From a virus: a DNA stretch of 64,000 nucleotides. Location of the stretch: the IMG/VR virus record IMGVR_UViG_3300003323_000257, positions 1-64,000 of that record, one strand, 5' to 3'. Below the pieces are notes generated by a model that was not told the origin of the DNA, did not search any database, and saw nothing but the letters and a program-made list of their open reading frames with translations. How positions within the stretch are numbered: the stretch's first letter is position 1; the number at the start of each line of letters is the position of its first letter. A program made the position numbers and the translations under genes. Positions 22,670 through 54,325 of this stretch are shown here, piece after piece.

Positions 22670-23008
22670 TCAGGGTTTCATATAAGGTTGGACATCAGAT
22701 TCAACTCCAGCGAGAGCTTCAATATCTCTGAGTGGCATTCCTGACCATACGTGTAGCTTGATCAACCAAATGTTAGGCATCTCACGAATGTCGTGCTTGA
22801 CCTTGGAGACATGAGATTTGGTAATACCTAAGGAGGCTTCCATTTCTTTTGGAAGCAGTCCACCTCGTATGCCCCTTCCTACAGCTCTATCGGTATAGCC
22901 AGCGTACAGTTTGCATTCGCTGATTAACGCCTCAATAGCGGTATCGTATTCACGGGTACGTCCGTCCTTGTGAACGACAACGTAATGCTCATTGTGGACG
23001 ACCTGCAT
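22670..23008 (-). CDS. HTH regulator, tandem paralogue 3
   Basis: N-terminal strands (YVVVHKDGRTREYDTAIEAL) lead into ISECKLYA, then an HTH-like unit LPKEMEASLGITKSHVSKVK (about 52-71) and the family ending WLIKLHVWSGMPLRDIEALA, then SDVQP. Start supported by GGAGGCTAA; its 5' end overlaps the previous paralogue by 20 nt. It is predicted to bind DNA, possibly at the repeat units at 23733-23820 (inference). Confidence 0.75.
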   Translation of the reverse strand: MQVVHNEHYVVVHKDGRTREYDTAIEALISECKLYAGYTDRAVGRGIRGGLLPKEMEASLGITKSHVSKVKHDIREMPNIWLIKLHVWSGMPLRDIEALAGVESDVQPYMKP

Positions 23009-23363
23009 TTAGCCTCCAGTGTGGTTGAATTTCGGATTCAATGCCGGCTAAGGCTTCGAGGTCTTTCAAAGGCAACCCTGACCAGATGTGCAGCTTGATA
23101 AGCCAGTGATTGGGCATTTTCTCCTTACCGTTTTTGACCCGTGACACACTGGACAATGGAATCTGTGTCTCGATCTGCATTTGTTTCGGCAGTAAACCTC
23201 CGCCTGGATGTTTGTTCTTCGCATCCACTGAAACAAATTTGGCCGCCAGCTTGCATTCGCTGATTAAGGCTTCCACTGCTGTAGGGTATTCGCGGGCCTC
23301 ATTGTTAACCCTAACAACTACTCGACCTTTTCGAACACCTTCGGTTATGTGTTGGACTTCCAT
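22989..23363 (-). CDS. HTH regulator, tandem paralogue 2
   Basis: Start at MEVQHITEGVRKGRVVVRVN behind AGGAGTCTTTAAA. Same plan as its neighbours: strands, AVEALISECKLAAKF, HTH unit LPKQMQIETQIPLSSVSRVK, then WLIKLHIWSGLPLKDLEALA and SEIQPH. 124 aa. The copy with the most extended linker (KNKHPGGG). Confidence 0.75.
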   Translation of the reverse strand: MEVQHITEGVRKGRVVVRVNNEAREYPTAVEALISECKLAAKFVSVDAKNKHPGGGLLPKQMQIETQIPLSSVSRVKNGKEKMPNHWLIKLHIWSGLPLKDLEALAGIESEIQPHWRLNAGRPQ

Positions 23364-23364
23364 T

Positions 23365-23685
23365 TTAAAGACTCCTATGAGGTTGGACATCAGAAACAGT
23401 GCCCGCTAGTTGTTCAATATCTTGAAGAGGCATACCGGACCACACGTGAAGCCTTAACAACCAGTCCTGTGGAATTTTAATCCTGCCTCGTTTGATTCGT
23501 GCTACCTGTTCAGCGTTAATTTTCGCAGCCACAGCCATTGTTAGCGGAACCGTTCCCCGGTGCTTCACCTTGTAGTTAAGGAACAGTTGAATCTCTTCCA
23601 AGAGGGCTTCGATATGAGTCTGATACTCACGGTAGGCCGTTCCAACGTAGACTCGCACTTTACGGTCAACGACTTTAACTTCCAT
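23365..23685 (-). CDS. HTH regulator, tandem paralogue 1
   Basis: Promoter-proximal member of the triplet, 106 aa. EVKVVDRKVRVYVGTAYREY strands, HIEALLEEIQLFL, HTH unit TMAVAAKINAEQVARIKRG, then WLLRLHVWSGMPLQDIEQLA and SDVQPH. It is transcribed leftward from just beyond the AGTAAATA box (23725-23732) and the two palindromic units (23733-23820), which suggests autoregulation. Confidence 0.75.
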   Translation of the reverse strand: MEVKVVDRKVRVYVGTAYREYQTHIEALLEEIQLFLNYKVKHRGTVPLTMAVAAKINAEQVARIKRGRIKIPQDWLLRLHVWSGMPLQDIEQLAGTVSDVQPHRSL

Positions 23686-23732: not shown

Positions 23733-23820
23733 CTGCGTAGGATGACGTGTCGTCGACAATAAAATCTACGCAGCTTCAGACTGCGTAACATGACGTGATG
23801 TTGACAAGTAATCCTACGCA
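23733..23820. repeat. two tandem 41-bp palindrome-flanked operator-like units
   Basis: Unit 1 (23733-23773) is bounded by CTGCGTAG and CTACGCAG; unit 2 (23781-23821) by CTGCGTA and TACGCA. Between the arms both units share ATGACGTG, GT and GACAA at identical positions. The start-to-start distance is 48 bp. The units lie between the GIY-YIG-like gene, whose last codons overlap unit 2, and the HTH triplet. Operator, replication or recombination site are the options. Confidence 0.75.
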
Positions 23821-24704
23821 ACACCTGAGTGCTTTTGAGGCCGGGCAAATCCCTGTTCATTCAAAAGAATAAAATGATAGAGTCGTTCAAATCTCCAAAT
23901 TGCAGAATTATGTTTTCCCATAGACTTGGTTATTTTAGGGCGCTTATCTCGATGACCTAAGAACCATAATCTAAGTTTTTCGTCTGTCTTATTAAGTTTA
24001 GAACTTACCTGACCATGAACAAAATAACGATGCATGTAGGAGCAAAAGTCTTCAACTGACTTACAGGTAGCCAATTGAATAATGCGATCTATCTTATACT
24101 CTCCAAATGCGTAGTAGTTCAGGTAATTGGCAATACGCGAGTATGCATCAAGACTTGGATCATCACTTGGCATAGGAGCGTCGTGATTTAAGTTTTGCGT
24201 TTCATACCGAGATGCTTTTATGTTCTCATCGTCTTCGTCAATCACAGTCTGCAGGTCGTACCAACCTTTGATTTTAGAAGGCACAAAATTCCATCTTCGT
24301 ATTAGGTAGCGTAAGGTTTCTTCATAATCAAACGAGTCGCCTTCTTCCGCCTCTATACTTCTGTATTCAGCCCAGAATTCAGCTTCTTCAGTCTTTCGCG
24401 TATTGTCGCGCACTTGGCCTGATTTCTCTATCCTAAGATTACAGAATTGAGGCAGTTTAACCGTGCTCGTTTTGTTGAGGACTGTAGTTCGGTGTTGGTT
24501 GATCAGAATAGCTTCTACCAGATATGCTGCACGACGTTTGAGCTTTCGGGCAACAATAGAAATAGCTATACTGTCATAGTCCTGAACCCTTACATAGTTA
24601 TGACCTGCTATGTTTTTAGCTCTTAGAAACTTCTCTCCGTCTTCTGATCCTATTCCTACATACACCACCCTATCATTTACAGTATAGGTATAAACGTAAT
24701 TCAT
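23814..24704 (-). CDS. GIY-YIG-like (LEM3-type) nuclease
   Basis: 296 aa. N-terminus VYTYTVNDRVVYVGIG (residues 4-19) matches the paired-strand GIY-YIG signature of the LEM3-like branch (FYVY...VFYVGIG). It continues with IAISIVARKL, then RRAAYLVEAILINQH, whose Glu (about 64) fits the metal-binding glutamate before a basic loop. The remaining 220 residues are a separate helical domain without a recognised fold. Predicted Mg-dependent DNA endonuclease; free-standing homing or host-DNA-degrading roles are both possible. ATGA overlap links it to the Rep-like gene upstream. Confidence 0.55.
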   Translation of the reverse strand: MNYVYTYTVNDRVVYVGIGSEDGEKFLRAKNIAGHNYVRVQDYDSIAISIVARKLKRRAAYLVEAILINQHRTTVLNKTSTVKLPQFCNLRIEKSGQVRDNTRKTEEAEFWAEYRSIEAEEGDSFDYEETLRYLIRRWNFVPSKIKGWYDLQTVIDEDDENIKASRYETQNLNHDAPMPSDDPSLDAYSRIANYLNYYAFGEYKIDRIIQLATCKSVEDFCSYMHRYFVHGQVSSKLNKTDEKLRLWFLGHRDKRPKITKSMGKHNSAIWRFERLYHFILLNEQGFARPQKHSGVA

Positions 24705-25894
24705 ACCAACCCCATGTCCAGCTCCATCTTATATGGGTGCGGATTCAAATTCAATTTGGTGTCCAGTGCCCTGGAGTCCCACAGCTTGGCAAACTCTTGG
24801 TCATCCAGCTCTTTCAATGTCCGCGCCCGCATTAAAGCCATGTAGACTCTGCGGGTCACCAACTTGTTTGCTTCCCTTTCCTTCCCGTCCTTACCAAGAG
24901 TTTTGAACTCCGGTAATTCACCCGCCATCACTTTCTTGTAATCGAACGACCACATATGGAGCATGAGAGTTCGGTGCAACGCCCAGTCAAACTCAACCTT
25001 TAGCCATGCATGCCATTTACCATCATAGTTCTTCTCTACGTAGTCCCGAAGGTCCGCCAAAGTTTGAATCTTTCGCCCATCTATTCTGTGTGATCTAAAC
25101 CACCCGTAGTTCAAATTCAGATCAAATCGAATTCGGTTCTTAATATCTTTCGGCACTTCCAGCAGAGATTCCCCGGCTACCGCCCTACGTTCATTGGCAT
25201 CTAGGAGCTGCTGCTCTTTATCATATGCTTGGAACATTGCCTGTTCTTCTCCAGAGGCACTCAATATCCTCAGGCATACACTTGACTTATGCGTCTTATG
25301 TTTCCTTCGCATCTCTAGGTCCAACATATCTAGAAGAGTCTCTGTTTGATTGATGCCATTCTCGTCTTTCTCTACAGAGTGCCCAATTCTATACGCCGTG
25401 GCCATGTCAAGTAATAGCTGCTTCTTGTTCTTTATCTTGTTGGTGTACGTCGCAAACTCCAGGGTATGCAGGTATATATTCAATGCGCGTATCTGGTCTT
25501 TTATTCGACTTGGAATCTCCAACTTACATGAGGTCTCTATCTGCTTTATTGCGCGTATAAACGAGGCCACGATTAATCTGTCTGCTTCAGGGAAACCGTA
25601 TGTATTCTCACCTGTTAGGAACGCCACTGGATTACCACGAATATTCAGGAAGTATATGTTATCTTTCCGGTGATCTCTTGTTAGAGAAACCTCTAGTCCT
25701 GATTCTTCGTTTAACCCGTATACGTTCACATACATCTTATCTCCATCTTGTATTCCTCCTGCTTTTAGTAGAACTCTACGTACTATAGCTGCCTCGGAAT
25801 CTCTTATCTCCACTGAACCATTTAACTTAGATCCTCCCAATAATCCATCCAGCGTTACCTTACGTTTTTTCAGTTTCTTCTGTGGGGTCTTCAT
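24701..25894 (-). CDS. replication protein resembling filamentous-phage/plasmid gpII (Phage_CRI)
   Basis: 397 aa, first gene of the leftward arm. Residues about 83-101 read LNIRGNPVAFLTGENTYG, close to the G-x-P-x-x-F-L-x-G-x-N-x-x-G signature of gene II/X replication proteins. Further on, FQAYDKEQQLL (222-231) matches that family's Y-x-K-x-x-E element. These proteins start replication by nicking the origin. The DNA beside it (25895-26088) holds iterated repeats, as an origin might. By-eye family match only; tyrosine nucleophile not assigned. Confidence 0.5.
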   Translation of the reverse strand: MKTPQKKLKKRKVTLDGLLGGSKLNGSVEIRDSEAAIVRRVLLKAGGIQDGDKMYVNVYGLNEESGLEVSLTRDHRKDNIYFLNIRGNPVAFLTGENTYGFPEADRLIVASFIRAIKQIETSCKLEIPSRIKDQIRALNIYLHTLEFATYTNKIKNKKQLLLDMATAYRIGHSVEKDENGINQTETLLDMLDLEMRRKHKTHKSSVCLRILSASGEEQAMFQAYDKEQQLLDANERRAVAGESLLEVPKDIKNRIRFDLNLNYGWFRSHRIDGRKIQTLADLRDYVEKNYDGKWHAWLKVEFDWALHRTLMLHMWSFDYKKVMAGELPEFKTLGKDGKEREANKLVTRRVYMALMRARTLKELDDQEFAKLWDSRALDTKLNLNPHPYKMELDMGLV

Positions 25895-25939: not shown

Positions 25940-25977
25940 TACGTGACAGCTATGCTCATAATATACGTGACAGTTAT
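25940..25977. repeat. direct repeats TACGTGACAG(C/T)TAT
   Basis: Two 14-bp copies (25940-25953 and 25964-25977), 24 bp start to start, differing at one base. A palindromic TTACGTAA lies just left at 25927-25934. They stand in the divergent region next to the Rep-like gene and overlap the leftward promoter-like box. Iteron or operator. Confidence 0.7.
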
Positions 25978-25984
25978 TTACTAG
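25975..25984 (-). promoter_or_regulatory. CTAGTAAATA promoter-like motif, leftward
   Basis: Exact CTAGTAAATA on the minus strand, 80 nt upstream of the Rep-like start at 25894. Together with the plus-strand copy at 26056 it flanks the divergence point, each copy facing the genes it would drive. Confidence 0.6.
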
Positions 25985-26055: not shown

Positions 26056-26065
26056 CTAGTAAATA
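26056..26065 (+). promoter_or_regulatory. CTAGTAAATA promoter-like motif, rightward
   Basis: Exact CTAGTAAATA 23 nt before the first rightward start codon at 26089. A ribosome site AAAAGGAG lies between. Confidence 0.6.
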
Positions 26066-26088: not shown

Positions 26089-26247
26089 ATGAACAACGTA
26101 ATCGACCTGAAAGAATACAGAGAACGTAAGCGCCTACAGAACGTAGCGGCTAAATCCACAAAGTGGAAAAGTTACTACTGGGTGAGCCTTACATTTCCTA
26201 AGACTACCATAAAGAAGGATACGCATGCAGATACAACCAATAAATAA
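26089..26247 (+). CDS. hypothetical protein (52 aa), first rightward gene
   Basis: ATG 12 nt after AAAAGGAG. MNNVIDLKEYRERKRLQNVA is a start common in small phage and plasmid proteins (V-I-D-L-x-x-Y-R-x-x-K). Aromatic middle (WKSYYWVSLTF), basic end. It overlaps the next gene by 23 nt. No function known. Confidence 0.7.
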   Translation: MNNVIDLKEYRERKRLQNVAAKSTKWKSYYWVSLTFPKTTIKKDTHADTTNK

Positions 26248-50147: not shown

Positions 50148-50948
50148 ATGGACGCACCAAAAATTCGTAAATTCGGCATTATCGGTACCTCTTGTGCCGG
50201 TAAGACCACTCTGGCCCATACCTTGGTCGGCCGTCTTAAGTCATACGGTATCCTTGCTGATGGCTTGTTTAGCCAGGACCGGAAGTTCTCGTTTGATAAA
50301 AAATATATCGAAACAGAGGAAGCTCAGAATTGGATGATCTGCAATCTGATCGCGAAAGAGGTGGACCTGAGCCTACATGGAGACGTGGAAGTGTTGATCA
50401 CTGATAGGACTCCTATTGATCTGTTTGCCTACTACTCTCACCAACATAACACGCGATTGAGCGAAGCTTGCTGGAACTACGCTAAAGAGTGGGCTAAGAC
50501 CTACGATGCCTTGTACTTTCTGGAACCTCTTCCTTACCAGGATGATGGAAAGCGCCCATCGGATGATTTCAGGCTGGCTGTAGACGCGGAACTTCGTTTC
50601 CTAATTAAGATGATTCCTAACGTGTATCAGTTAGGACGGCATGAAGTTATGAATGACATCCTAAAGAGGATTGGCTTTAAAAAGCCTGGAGTGAAGATGG
50701 ACTTTACTCCCAAGGATGCTCAGACTCTGGCCAACCATATTCAACGCTCCTTGGTGGTCAAGCGCTCGGAAATAAAGGATGCACTTTCTGATTACGACGT
50801 GTGGATCTTAGCAGGATTGGACTTCAACATTCAATCTGTAAGATCCTATGCATCAGGTCTGTTTGGAACTTTCGTTCCCCTGGAAATCAACCTTGCTGTT
50901 TCTACGGAAACTCTAACTTTTGAATTCGACCGTTATGACCCAGAATAA
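50148..50948 (+). CDS. P-loop kinase/ATPase (AAA_28-like)
   Basis: 266 aa. Walker A GTSCAGKT (13-20), ITDRTPIDLFAYYSHQHNTR as the lid-side motif of the AAA_28/NadR-type kinases, and Y-D-A-L-Y-F-L-E-P-L-P-Y. The C-terminal 60 residues are an extra domain. First gene of the DpdA operon; may phosphorylate a nucleoside or pathway intermediate. Not specific to any known modification step. Confidence 0.75.
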   Translation: MDAPKIRKFGIIGTSCAGKTTLAHTLVGRLKSYGILADGLFSQDRKFSFDKKYIETEEAQNWMICNLIAKEVDLSLHGDVEVLITDRTPIDLFAYYSHQHNTRLSEACWNYAKEWAKTYDALYFLEPLPYQDDGKRPSDDFRLAVDAELRFLIKMIPNVYQLGRHEVMNDILKRIGFKKPGVKMDFTPKDAQTLANHIQRSLVVKRSEIKDALSDYDVWILAGLDFNIQSVRSYASGLFGTFVPLEINLAVSTETLTFEFDRYDPE

Positions 50949-52359
50949 TAAAAGGCGGCCCTTTGGATACGTGTTGGCTGCCATAACTGCGCGCTCTCCA
51001 TCGTCTTTCATTGGCGTCAAATACGAAGACAACTCTAAGAAGCCGTATCTGTGGAAGCGAACACGCTTTAACGGATTGACCACTCATTGGACTCCTGATC
51101 GCACCATCTACTATGGCTCGCCTGGACCAAGGGCGAACGCTATTCCTACTGTTGACCTGGACGTAGTGTTTCCAATTAGCGCTCCGACAGAACCAGAGGT
51201 ATTGGTGAACGCCGGATTCGACTACGCTATGGCCTCTCCGCACCATGTTAGTGCTGGATCGGAGACCCGGAGAAACGATAAGGTAAAGCTGTTCTGTGAC
51301 TCAGGTGGGTTCCAGTTAATCAGTGGAGCCTTGGACTGGGTGGACATGGATGAATTGGCAGACACGTACAACAGAACCATCGATTACGGAATTGGCCTAG
51401 ACATACCTACGCCAGGTGAGCTACAGAAAGACTTCCTGATGCGTATGTGTGACGTGATGATCAAGAACAATCGCTATCTACGCAGCAAAGTTGTACCTGA
51501 AGTAGAGATTTATGACGTGAGTCACGGTAACACCTTACAGTTGAGAGCCAAGTTTTTGGATCGCGTATTGGCCGAAAAGAAGAAGGAACGTCGCGATGGT
51601 CAAGGATTGGCGATCGGTGCTATCGCGCAAAACTTTAAGGATGGCGGTCAGCGCCAAACTGTGGTTACTGGGTCGGTTAATCTCATATACACACTGTTAA
51701 AATCCAAAGGCCTGTACGAGAGATATCACGTATTAGGAACAACGAATTCGTTTTTTCAATTTCTGTACCACGTGCTTCTCCATTATGAAGTGGCCCCACA
51801 CATTACGGCGGACTCGACGTCCTACGTTTTGCCTGCGACGTATAATCTGATGATCGCCAACAAATTGGCTCCAGACCATTCCTTGTTATCGTTGGAGCTT
51901 CCAAAAGAGGAGCGCTCCTATACGTTGAACTGTAACTGTCCTGTGTGTTATCACGTAAAATATGCGCGTGAGTACCAGCTAATGTACATGACTAATACCT
52001 TACATGGTATGTATGCAACGGCCAACCAACGCGACCGAATCGAGGAAATAGCAGGAGAATACTTGAGGGGACGTATTGGACTAAATGAAGCGCTCTCGGT
52101 GTGTACCGGTGAACCTGCTTCGTCTCTCAAGGTGTACACAGCCATCGTAAAGTTTGCTATCGAGGCCGCCGAAAAAGGTTTTAAAGAAGCCTGGCTTTAC
52201 CATGAGAAAACATTGAATGGCTTAATGCGAGGTTCAGTCTCCACAGGCGGTTTGTTCAACAAAGGCACCAAGGCAATGTCTTCTAAGGCTAAGCGACTGG
52301 ACTCCATCCTTACTCGCTTTGAAGAGTTCCATGCAGCTAAAACAAAGGGACGCAAATGA
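50935..52359 (+). CDS. dpdA: DpdA-like DNA 7-deazaguanine transglycosylase
   Basis: 474 aa, related to tRNA-guanine transglycosylase. FCDSGGFQL (Asp122 as in the TGT D-S-G-G-F-Q motif), GIGLDIPTPG (Asp156), QGLAIGAIAQ, and a zinc site C333-x-C335-x2-C338 ... H357. DpdA enzymes swap guanine in DNA for a 7-deazaguanine base. Start at the ATG 14 nt inside the kinase gene. With QueE/QueD/FolE next to it, DNA rather than tRNA is the likely target. TGT-like phage proteins differ from DpdA subgroups, and the subgroup cannot be set by eye. Confidence 0.85.
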   Translation: MTQNNKRRPFGYVLAAITARSPSSFIGVKYEDNSKKPYLWKRTRFNGLTTHWTPDRTIYYGSPGPRANAIPTVDLDVVFPISAPTEPEVLVNAGFDYAMASPHHVSAGSETRRNDKVKLFCDSGGFQLISGALDWVDMDELADTYNRTIDYGIGLDIPTPGELQKDFLMRMCDVMIKNNRYLRSKVVPEVEIYDVSHGNTLQLRAKFLDRVLAEKKKERRDGQGLAIGAIAQNFKDGGQRQTVVTGSVNLIYTLLKSKGLYERYHVLGTTNSFFQFLYHVLLHYEVAPHITADSTSYVLPATYNLMIANKLAPDHSLLSLELPKEERSYTLNCNCPVCYHVKYAREYQLMYMTNTLHGMYATANQRDRIEEIAGEYLRGRIGLNEALSVCTGEPASSLKVYTAIVKFAIEAAEKGFKEAWLYHEKTLNGLMRGSVSTGGLFNKGTKAMSSKAKRLDSILTRFEEFHAAKTKGRK

Positions 52360-52847
52360 AGATACTCAAGGTTCGTAATCTGTACGGCTACCCTTCGTAC
52401 ACCGACGCCATTGTGGAGTACAGCAAGTCCATAGGAGCTTCTCTTATTCTGGATCGCACTTCTTTGTTGAAGGCTCCCAAGGAGTGGAGGATGTCCAATA
52501 AGCCAAAAATCTTGGTCGACTCCTTCACGGCCTTCCTGCAAAGCGAGGTTCCTATCATTGGCTACAAGAATGATAGAGGTGTGTATCTCAAGGATTCGCG
52601 ATTACCCCATCGAGAGCATTTGGTAGACAACGTATGTCAGGTGAAGATACCTTCCAATCTGAAGCGCGTTCCATCTAAAGTGCTGGCCTCCGCTTTGAAA
52701 GCCAAGGTCAAAAAAGACTTCCTGGACTCTATTGATCCTGAGGATCCTAACTATAAAGTGGTCAAGGGCATGATAACGATTCACCTCCCTGCGTCCTTAA
52801 AGGACCCATTCACCAAAGTAAATAAGAAGACAAAGGAGAACACATGA
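52356..52847 (+). CDS. unknown protein between dpdA and queE (163 aa)
   Basis: MKILKVRNLYGYPSYTDAIV; alpha/beta N-terminal half (SKSIGASLILDRTSLL, KILVDSFTAFLQSEVPIIGY), basic C-terminal part (KVLASALKAKVKKDFLDSI). ATGA overlaps to DpdA upstream and QueE downstream. No family recognised; position argues for a role in base insertion or tailoring. Confidence 0.75.
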   Translation: MKILKVRNLYGYPSYTDAIVEYSKSIGASLILDRTSLLKAPKEWRMSNKPKILVDSFTAFLQSEVPIIGYKNDRGVYLKDSRLPHREHLVDNVCQVKIPSNLKRVPSKVLASALKAKVKKDFLDSIDPEDPNYKVVKGMITIHLPASLKDPFTKVNKKTKENT

Positions 52848-53647
52848 AAACCATCATGATTCAAAACCAAGATCGAAATATGAGTGCACGAGATTACCCG
52901 GACTCCACATTTCTACGTGTAACCTCAATGTTCCGAACCCTGCAAGGTGAAGGTCCATTCGCAGGCTTTCCAGCCGTGTTCCTTCGACTATCTGGATGTA
53001 ACTATGGTAGCAAAACGGATATGTGCACCTGGTGTGATACTTCCTTCCAATTTGACCATGGGCAGCTGCATACGATTGACCAGGTAGTAGCAGAGCTAAA
53101 TCATTTGGAAGGACGTCAGCCTTCTGACATTCTGGTAATCACTGGAGGGGAACCAACTCTTCAAAAAACTTTGCTAGGACTGATTTCAAAGGTATGGGCC
53201 AACAAATATTTCAAAACCATTCAAGTGGAAACCAATGGTACGCAGCCAAAGTTCTTTGAAGATGCTGAAGAGATGGGTCTCCTAGGTAAGGATAAAGTCA
53301 CCTTTGTAGTCTCACCGAAAGCTAACGAACGGCTCAAGAAATATCCTCAGGTTCACCCTAAGGTTAAATGGTGGGCGGATTGCTATAAGTTTGTCCTGTC
53401 TGCTGAAGAAGGTGACGCGCATCACGAAATTCCTGAATGGGCATTAACCGAGAAACATAAGCCTGTGTATGTAAGCCCTATGACAGTATACCTAAAACCA
53501 TATCAGGGTGAGGTGTCCTCTATTTGGGACGCTGACCTGGTGGATCAGGAACGCACCGCAGCAAACTACGCATACGCCGCTGCTTACGCCTTAAAACATA
53601 ACCTGCGTCTGAGTGTGCAAATGCACACCCTGACTGCCATAGCTTAA
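52844..53647 (+). CDS. queE: 7-carboxy-7-deazaguanine synthase (QueE)
   Basis: 267 aa. Radical-SAM enzyme with QGEG (34-37), cluster cysteines C52-x8-C61-x2-C64 (CNYGSKTDMCTWC), GGEP (101-104) and ETNGTQ. The long loop in the cysteine motif is the QueE variant. Converts 6-carboxytetrahydropterin to CDG. Ends with QMHTLTAIA as in family members. Confidence 0.93.
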   Translation: MKTIMIQNQDRNMSARDYPDSTFLRVTSMFRTLQGEGPFAGFPAVFLRLSGCNYGSKTDMCTWCDTSFQFDHGQLHTIDQVVAELNHLEGRQPSDILVITGGEPTLQKTLLGLISKVWANKYFKTIQVETNGTQPKFFEDAEEMGLLGKDKVTFVVSPKANERLKKYPQVHPKVKWWADCYKFVLSAEEGDAHHEIPEWALTEKHKPVYVSPMTVYLKPYQGEVSSIWDADLVDQERTAANYAYAAAYALKHNLRLSVQMHTLTAIA

Positions 53648-53656
53648 AGGACAAAC

Positions 53657-54325
53657 ATGAGTAAGACCAACGCTCAACTGGGACAGCAGATACACAAACA
53701 CCTGGAGGTGCTAGGTATCGAGACCCCTATGTTTGAAAATTCTCCGTCCGACCAGCTTAATATGATTACCAAGCTGGATCGCGTAGAGAAGCATTTTGCG
53801 GAGATCATGAAGTTACTCCAACTTAATCTTAATGATGACTCTCTAAGAGAGACACCAAGGCGAGTGGCAAAAATGTTTTTGAACGAGATTTTCTCCGGTC
53901 TTGATTACAATAATTTCCCTAAGTGCACCGTGATCGATAACAAGATGGGTGCTGACGAAATGGTGATCGAACGTAACATCACCATGAACTCCACTTGTGA
54001 ACATCATCTGTTGCCTATTATCGGGAAGGCACACGTAGCATACATTCCAGGTGCTAAGGTACTTGGTCTGTCCAAGATGAATCGGATTGTTCAGTTCTTC
54101 GCTGCACGTCCTCAAGTTCAGGAACGGTTGACTCTGCAAATTCATGCCGCCCTGTGTTTCATTCTTGAAACCAAAGACGTTGCGGTGGTAATCGAAGCCG
54201 AGCATATGTGTGTAAAGACCAGGGGCGTAGAGGACGCTTGCAGTGACACAGTGACTTCCAAAGTAAGTGGTGTATTCCGTAACCCAGTAACTCGTAATGA
54301 GTTCATCACCTTTACACGAAAATGA
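53657..54325 (+). CDS. folE: GTP cyclohydrolase I
   Basis: 222 aa. [24 protein letters not shown] (C114, H116/H117), [23 protein letters not shown] (C185) and the terminal R-N-P-V-T-R-N-E-F are the FolE signatures, with complete zinc ligands. It supplies dihydroneopterin triphosphate to QueD. Ribosome site AAAGGACAAAC; coupled to the HAD gene downstream. Confidence 0.95.

Follow-up and report, generated by a model that had tools for sequence, protein, structure and literature searches.

A gene II-like candidate initiator at the transcription-divergence hub of a jumbo phage and its exchange with an unrelated helicase gene

G2P proteins of the M13 gpII type (PF05144, TIGR01629) belong to filamentous phages, whereas the protein described here, P0001, is encoded by a jumbo tailed double-stranded DNA phage. 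The two share the same order of an N-terminal Asp, a GNPxxFLxGxNxxG-type motif, YxKxxE/Q and RxE/D, but are only about 15% identical, and P0001 differs in having D for E in motif IV and no detected G2P_X_C domain. That a tailed double-stranded DNA phage can use a rolling-circle nickase is known from protein A of phage P2; unlike P0001, it is a member of the HUH family from a small phage, and we know of no exchange of this protein with a helicase. RepDE and RepSTK1 (PF02486) follow, like P0001, a scheme of D, YxKxxE/Q and RxE (PMC4797284, PMC5714925), and P0001 gave no direct sequence match to PF02486. In the general Rep_trans scheme, motif N' is an Asp, motif I is RxD, motif III is YxKxxE and motif IV is RxE (PMC5714925, PMC4797284). 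By their description, Rep-Arvir and RepSNJ2 of archaeal viruses resemble P0001 in forming a divergent Rep_trans-like branch in another kind of virus and in showing E/D exchange at metal positions, and a hairpin 3' of their operon has been proposed as the origin (PMC13107129). Finally, the slot that P0001 fills as first gene of an arm is occupied in Saruman-, Motura- and PhiXhv-like phages by a DEAD-type helicase of phrog_2467, an ATPase unrelated to P0001.

The stretch of DNA that we analysed (the window, 64 kb) belongs to a virus record of 133,922 bases, referred to here as G000. Its DNA polymerase shares 78% identity with the polymerase of a second IMG/VR record, G001 (189,544 bases), and collinearity between the two spans almost the entire record; identity is about 51% to the polymerases of the Burkholderia phages BcepSaruman and BcepSauron and 48% to that of Achromobacter phage Motura. 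The first-pass annotation had called a gene II-type protein unexpected in a phage with its own polymerase, and both halves of that statement stood. The polymerase matches phrog_17 (E=1e-76) and is accompanied by a primase and by homologues of the Motura sliding clamp, helicases, ssDNA-binding protein and RecA. In tblastn searches of 50,697 phage records with canonical II/X proteins, P0001 and two relatives of P0001, II/X proteins were placed in filamentous phages and in no others.

Both motifs originally read in P0001, GNPxxFLxGxNxxG and YDKxxxL, are present, at residues 87-100 (GNPVAFLTGENTYG) and 224-230 (YDKEQQL), respectively. Its position as first gene of the left arm was likewise confirmed: over all 133,922 bases of the record, the cumulative coding-strand profile takes its lowest value at 25,894. 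The features of this hub are collected in Table 1. The small HTH-like paralogues beyond the P0001 operon are absent from G001 and gave no family matches; the idea that they and P0001 had arrived together from an inovirus was rejected, as the matches were weak.

Table 1. Features at and around the divergence hub, in window coordinates
Feature	Position	Strand	Remarks
Three tandem paralogous small proteins	22670..23685	-	106-133 aa; HTH-like sequence by eye
Two 40-bp direct repeats with nested palindrome	23733..23820	.	Directly follow the P0001 operon; may be an origin, an operator or a terminator
296-aa partner protein	23814..24704	-	Overlaps the P0001 stop codon (ATGA); N-terminus GIY-YIG-like by eye (YVYTYT...YVGIG...R...E)
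gpII-like (Phage_CRI / rep_II_X) protein P0001	24701..25894	-	397 aa, ATG at 25894; candidate initiator acting by nicking, with Y224 as candidate nucleophile
Direct repeat copy 1, TACGTGACAGCTAT	25940..25953	+	Just upstream of P0001
Direct repeat copy 2, TACGTGACAGTTAT	25964..25977	+	Just upstream of P0001
AGTAAATA promoter-type element	25975..25982	-	Leftward, upstream of P0001; leftward element at G001 hub too
AGTAAATA promoter-type element	26058..26065	+	Rightward; at G001 hub too
52-aa ORF, MNNVIDLKEYR...	26089..26247	+	First right-arm gene; N-terminus common to G001 (MSNVIDLAAYR...)

On its own, P0001 scored below the curated cut-offs of both family models, with 16.8 bits against PF05144 (cut-off 21.7; E=0.0059) and 17.2 bits against TIGR01629 (cut-off 29; E=0.0019), in each case over residues 64-290. 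A search for the DNA form of GNPxxFLxGxNxxG recovered 15 IMG/VR contigs, 14 of which, nearly all inovirus-sized, encode II/X proteins, and one of which was a chance match. When the resulting inovirus II/X profiles were run against 1,420 jumbo-phage ORFs, P0001 was the only significant hit (E=1.9e-5, with the next ORF at 0.67, and E=5.7e-5), although this score is not independent of the motif by which the profile set had been gathered. Masking the motif removed most of the profile score, which rests mostly on the GNP motif; with the motif retained and the remainder shuffled, the real score was reached in 7 of 2,000 trials for the combined profile and in 27 of 2,000 for the motif set. A profile of M13-type proteins alone did not find P0001, and no relatives were recovered by tblastn in phages (E up to 10) and plasmids or when IMG/VR and bacterial genomes were scanned for the pattern. 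Scanning with a GEN variant of the motif produced chance matches only.

Relatives of P0001 emerged only after we had collected 35 related jumbo-phage records by DNA polymerase alignment. Four of these metagenomic records (G021, G016, G007 and G028) encode homologues of P0001, with E values from 8e-29 to 1.5e-9 and 24-31% identity. A profile of the five found no further members in the related records, and a final scan of IMG/VR added solely a second record resembling G028. All four relatives exceed the Pfam gathering score for Phage_CRI of 21.7 (31.3, 29.8, 23.9 and 23.5 bits), and alignment of the five jumbo proteins with 16 inovirus II/X proteins in hhalign gave a probability of 97.4% and E=1e-11 over 211 columns. 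Profile searches with the Phage_CRI/gpII models left P0001 alone under the curated cut-offs but carried its four relatives over that of Pfam, and together with the profile-profile match this supports the II/X assignment made in the first-pass annotation beyond what a single sequence allows. The C-terminal domain G2P_X_C (PF05155) was not detected in any of the five jumbo proteins, whereas it was detected in 17 of the 18 rows of the II/X alignment, P0001 being the exception, and for this reason we file the jumbo group as a divergent II/X-Rep_trans branch rather than as canonical G2P. Judged by its sequence, P0001 falls within the tyrosine nickase superfamily of gene II (Phage_CRI) proteins and plasmid Rep_trans initiators, as one of its divergent members.

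Nine residues are invariant in all five jumbo proteins (D16, N88, P89, N97, G100, Y224, K226, R256 and D258) and match invariant columns of the inovirus II/X set. The invariant Tyr aligns with M13 Y197, which from the gpII literature we take to be the gpII nucleophile. On the Rep_trans scheme, D16 corresponds to motif N', Y224 and K226 to motif III, and R256 and D258 to motif IV. Motif III of P0001 reads YDKEQQ, with Q for E, as is likewise found in RepSTK1 (PMC4797284); its Y and K are invariant, and the four relatives have an E at the YxKxxE position or within one residue of it. Motif IV is RxD in the jumbo proteins, with D replacing E, and the acid position of motif I reads E, E, E, T and A across the five. 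The Rep_trans scheme has three metal-binding carboxylates, in motifs N', I and IV; at these positions D16 and D258 are invariant in the jumbo proteins, and the motif I position is E in three and T or A in two.

We also examined the predicted fold. AlphaFold was uninformative on P0001 alone (pLDDT 37), and with the inovirus II/X alignment added it gave a model with pTM 0.60 and pLDDT 65.9, the latter reaching about 90 over much of residues 30-145. The best BFVD match of this model was A0A7S5V094, with Inoviridae G2P at rank 2 (E=3.1e-7), and a plain Foldseek search against the PDB returned nothing below E=0.001. With VIA-align, the best solved structures were those of the Rep_trans proteins RepDE/RepSTK1 (4cwe, 4cwc and 4cij at ranks 1, 2 and 4, with Z of 8.6, 8.4 and 7.9). 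TBP structures were interleaved with these and scored almost as high, which the TBP-like sheet of Rep_trans proteins leads one to expect, and it had been predicted that Phage_CRI might share the TBP-like fold (PMC4797284). Because the model rests on the inovirus alignment, with Z barely above the usual background, we regard the fold match as supportive, not decisive, of a Rep_trans-like rather than an HUH kind of protein. The HUH-like fold that had been envisaged for P0001 was not borne out: the best solved folds were Rep_trans and similar TBP structures, P0001 contains no HUH (His-hydrophobic-His) motif, and no His is invariant among the five proteins. What structure prediction did return of the proposed kinship was the match to Inoviridae G2P, from a model built on the II/X alignment.

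The sister genomes G000 and G001 differ in the gene they carry at one orthologous hub. The hubs are anchored as orthologous by the common N-terminus of the small rightward ORF and are further marked by divergent AGTAAATA elements, and in G001 the first leftward gene encodes an unrelated, 825-aa DEAD-type protein. This protein belongs to phrog_2467 (E=1.5e-30), as does BcepSaruman_194 (E=5.8e-26), and in Saruman, Sauron, Motura and PhiXhv-12 a phrog_2467 gene is the first of an arm and borders a long intergenic gap; none was found in G000. Among the 36 related records, 22 have the helicase, 5 have the gpII-like gene, 9 have neither and none has both, and the corresponding counts for records of at least 130 kb are 14, 5, 3 and 0. 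Fisher tests, which ignore kinship, gave p=0.005 for all 36 records and p=0.002 for those of at least 130 kb. On the polymerase tree, well-supported branches force at least five exchanges between the two states, and a single clade of gpII-like genomes was rejected (AU p=3e-11); a paired sign test offered only five independent pairs, putting significance out of reach. In G016 and G007 the gpII-like gene is found at the junction where it stands in G000, and the order of the arm is the same, with an SbcD-like gene and then shared genes (two in G016, one in the stretch of G007 read); the coding strand switches at the hub in G000, G001, G016 and G007. In G028 the gpII-like gene is at the hub in the opposite reading direction, and in G021 it follows a 265-base gap and does not stand at a clear divergence. 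No earlier report of an exchange between a gpII-like gene and a helicase was found in the literature searched.

In BcepSaruman another phrog_2467 gene lies at a distance from the hub (MK552140.1, 234888-236489), and the Sauron-type record G006 also has such a second gene. Three large related records, G020 (238 kb), G034 (178 kb) and G025 (143 kb), lack both the helicase and the gpII-like gene, and their hubs may be occupied by a gene of a third type. A link between the phrog_2467 helicase and the herpes origin-binding protein was rejected as unsupported, the helicase having no match to Herpes_ori_bp.

The repeats reported beside P0001 are indeed there: TACGTGACAGYTAT occurs twice, at 25940 and 25964, its core is found nowhere else in the 133,922-base record, and none of 100 shuffles equalled the repeat in strength. 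All five gpII-like genes have their own, mutually different direct repeats immediately upstream, those of the relatives being AAGAATGCTGTCAGACAAT in two copies, AGTTAAACTATGTGT in 2-3 copies, GTACTGTCAACATCCACTGTAAGTAC in two copies plus two diverged ones, and a palindrome-bearing 37-base repeat in two copies. In shuffle tests (100 each), all five gpII-like hubs beat every shuffle, whereas among five helicase hubs one did so clearly and two were borderline. Such genome-specific repeats fit binding sites that are specific to an initiator; operators would give the same picture. The palindrome at 23733-23820 is also predicted to fold as DNA (z=-3.8; 0 of 200 shuffles), and the origin could be either this element or the upstream repeats. 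GC skew was rejected as evidence for an origin: in G000 and G007 its minimum coincides with the hub, but the skew at third positions shows no flip at that point, indicating that GC skew follows the coding strand.

The repeats lie close to AGTAAATA, of which G000 has 22 copies (8-mers of the same composition average 4.4) and G001 has 27 (average 1.6). Copies are mostly on the coding strand, 20-60 bases 5' of start codons, with examples in G000 at 15411-, 26058+, 33263+, 35395+, 52817+, 110691+ and 127231+. It looks like a promoter element used throughout the clade, and it resembles the T4 late promoter TATAAATA. Elsewhere in the window, the gene at 62403-63377 matches a sigma-factor family (phrog_17569, E=1e-61) and is a candidate reader of AGTAAATA.

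As the slot of P0001 is held by the phrog_2467 helicase in relatives, the hub gene together with its repeats acts like an initiator module that can be exchanged, and we assign a probability of roughly 60% to the reading that P0001 and the hub repeats form such a module with origin-nicking activity. P0001 would most likely bind the direct repeats at the divergence hub as an origin-specific initiator and nick one strand through Y224, which would become joined to the DNA by a 5'-phosphotyrosyl link; carboxylates, D16 and D258 among them, would hold a metal. The 3'-OH at the nick would then be the start of synthesis for the phage polymerase, helicase, clamp and ssDNA-binding protein, and rolling-circle synthesis may produce concatemers for packaging. 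The helicase would have a matching role in its own genomes. Alternatively, P0001 could be an active site-specific nickase serving recombination, packaging or mobilisation rather than the start of genome replication. Conjugative relaxases are found among the Rep_trans-type enzymes (PMC5714925) and an SbcD-like gene lies in the same arm, but mutual exclusion with the other hub gene and the position at the head of the arm favour initiation, and we consider such a use unlikely.

Still less probable, in our judgement, is that P0001 has lost catalysis and acts as a DNA-binding regulator with the repeats as its operator. The repeats separate P0001 from its AGTAAATA element and probably belong to the 5' leader, which would suit an operator, and motif I is not conserved and motif III of P0001 has Q for E; however, the invariance of D16, Y224, K226, R256 and D258 at 24-31% identity is hard to explain without catalysis.

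The gene that follows P0001 raises a third alternative, in which P0001 and the GIY-YIG-like protein encoded next to it would make up a selfish homing cassette, inserting at the hub by happenstance. The neighbour gave no match in a Pfam search, and a homologue of it (37% over 67 aa) directly follows, and likewise overlaps, the gpII-like gene of G028. Two of the five gpII-like genes thus have this partner but three do not, and insertion alone leaves unexplained why the helicase gene is absent elsewhere in the genome, making a homing cassette improbable. In G007, the end of the gpII-like gene is directly overlapped by a second, diverged SbcD-like gene (L200 8161-9117), a partner different from the GIY-YIG-like one of G000 and G028. 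That the GNP motif is a chance match in an unrelated protein, as the scores of P0001 alone might have allowed, we count as already refuted by the four relatives over the cut-off and the profile-profile E=1e-11.

The either-or occurrence of nickase and helicase suggests that large phages are able to swap the starter of genome copying. More tentatively, and at somewhat less than even odds, jumbo phages would repeatedly exchange the whole initiation module, initiator and cognate repeats together, at a fixed hub, alternating between nickase and helicase and so changing how replication starts while the rest of the replisome is kept. The start of replication in most large tailed phages is poorly known, and the P0001 family supplies candidate filamentous-phage-type initiators in jumbo phages. 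A II/X protein in jumbo phages was not described in the literature searched, an absence there that is not proof, and the novelty lies in the combination of such a protein with its exchange for a helicase. That exchange at one locus points to a testable function for both families, with the sister phages G000 and G001 as a natural experiment. The P0001 family also extends the Rep_trans/II-X superfamily into large double-stranded DNA tailed phages, and the hub repeats become candidate origins.

In addition, the window contains homologues of the Motura 7-deazaguanine genes at 50920-54325, encoding a QueE-like protein (49%), a GTP cyclohydrolase (60%) and a tRNA-guanine-transglycosylase-like protein (33%), which suggests that G000 may carry modified DNA bases.
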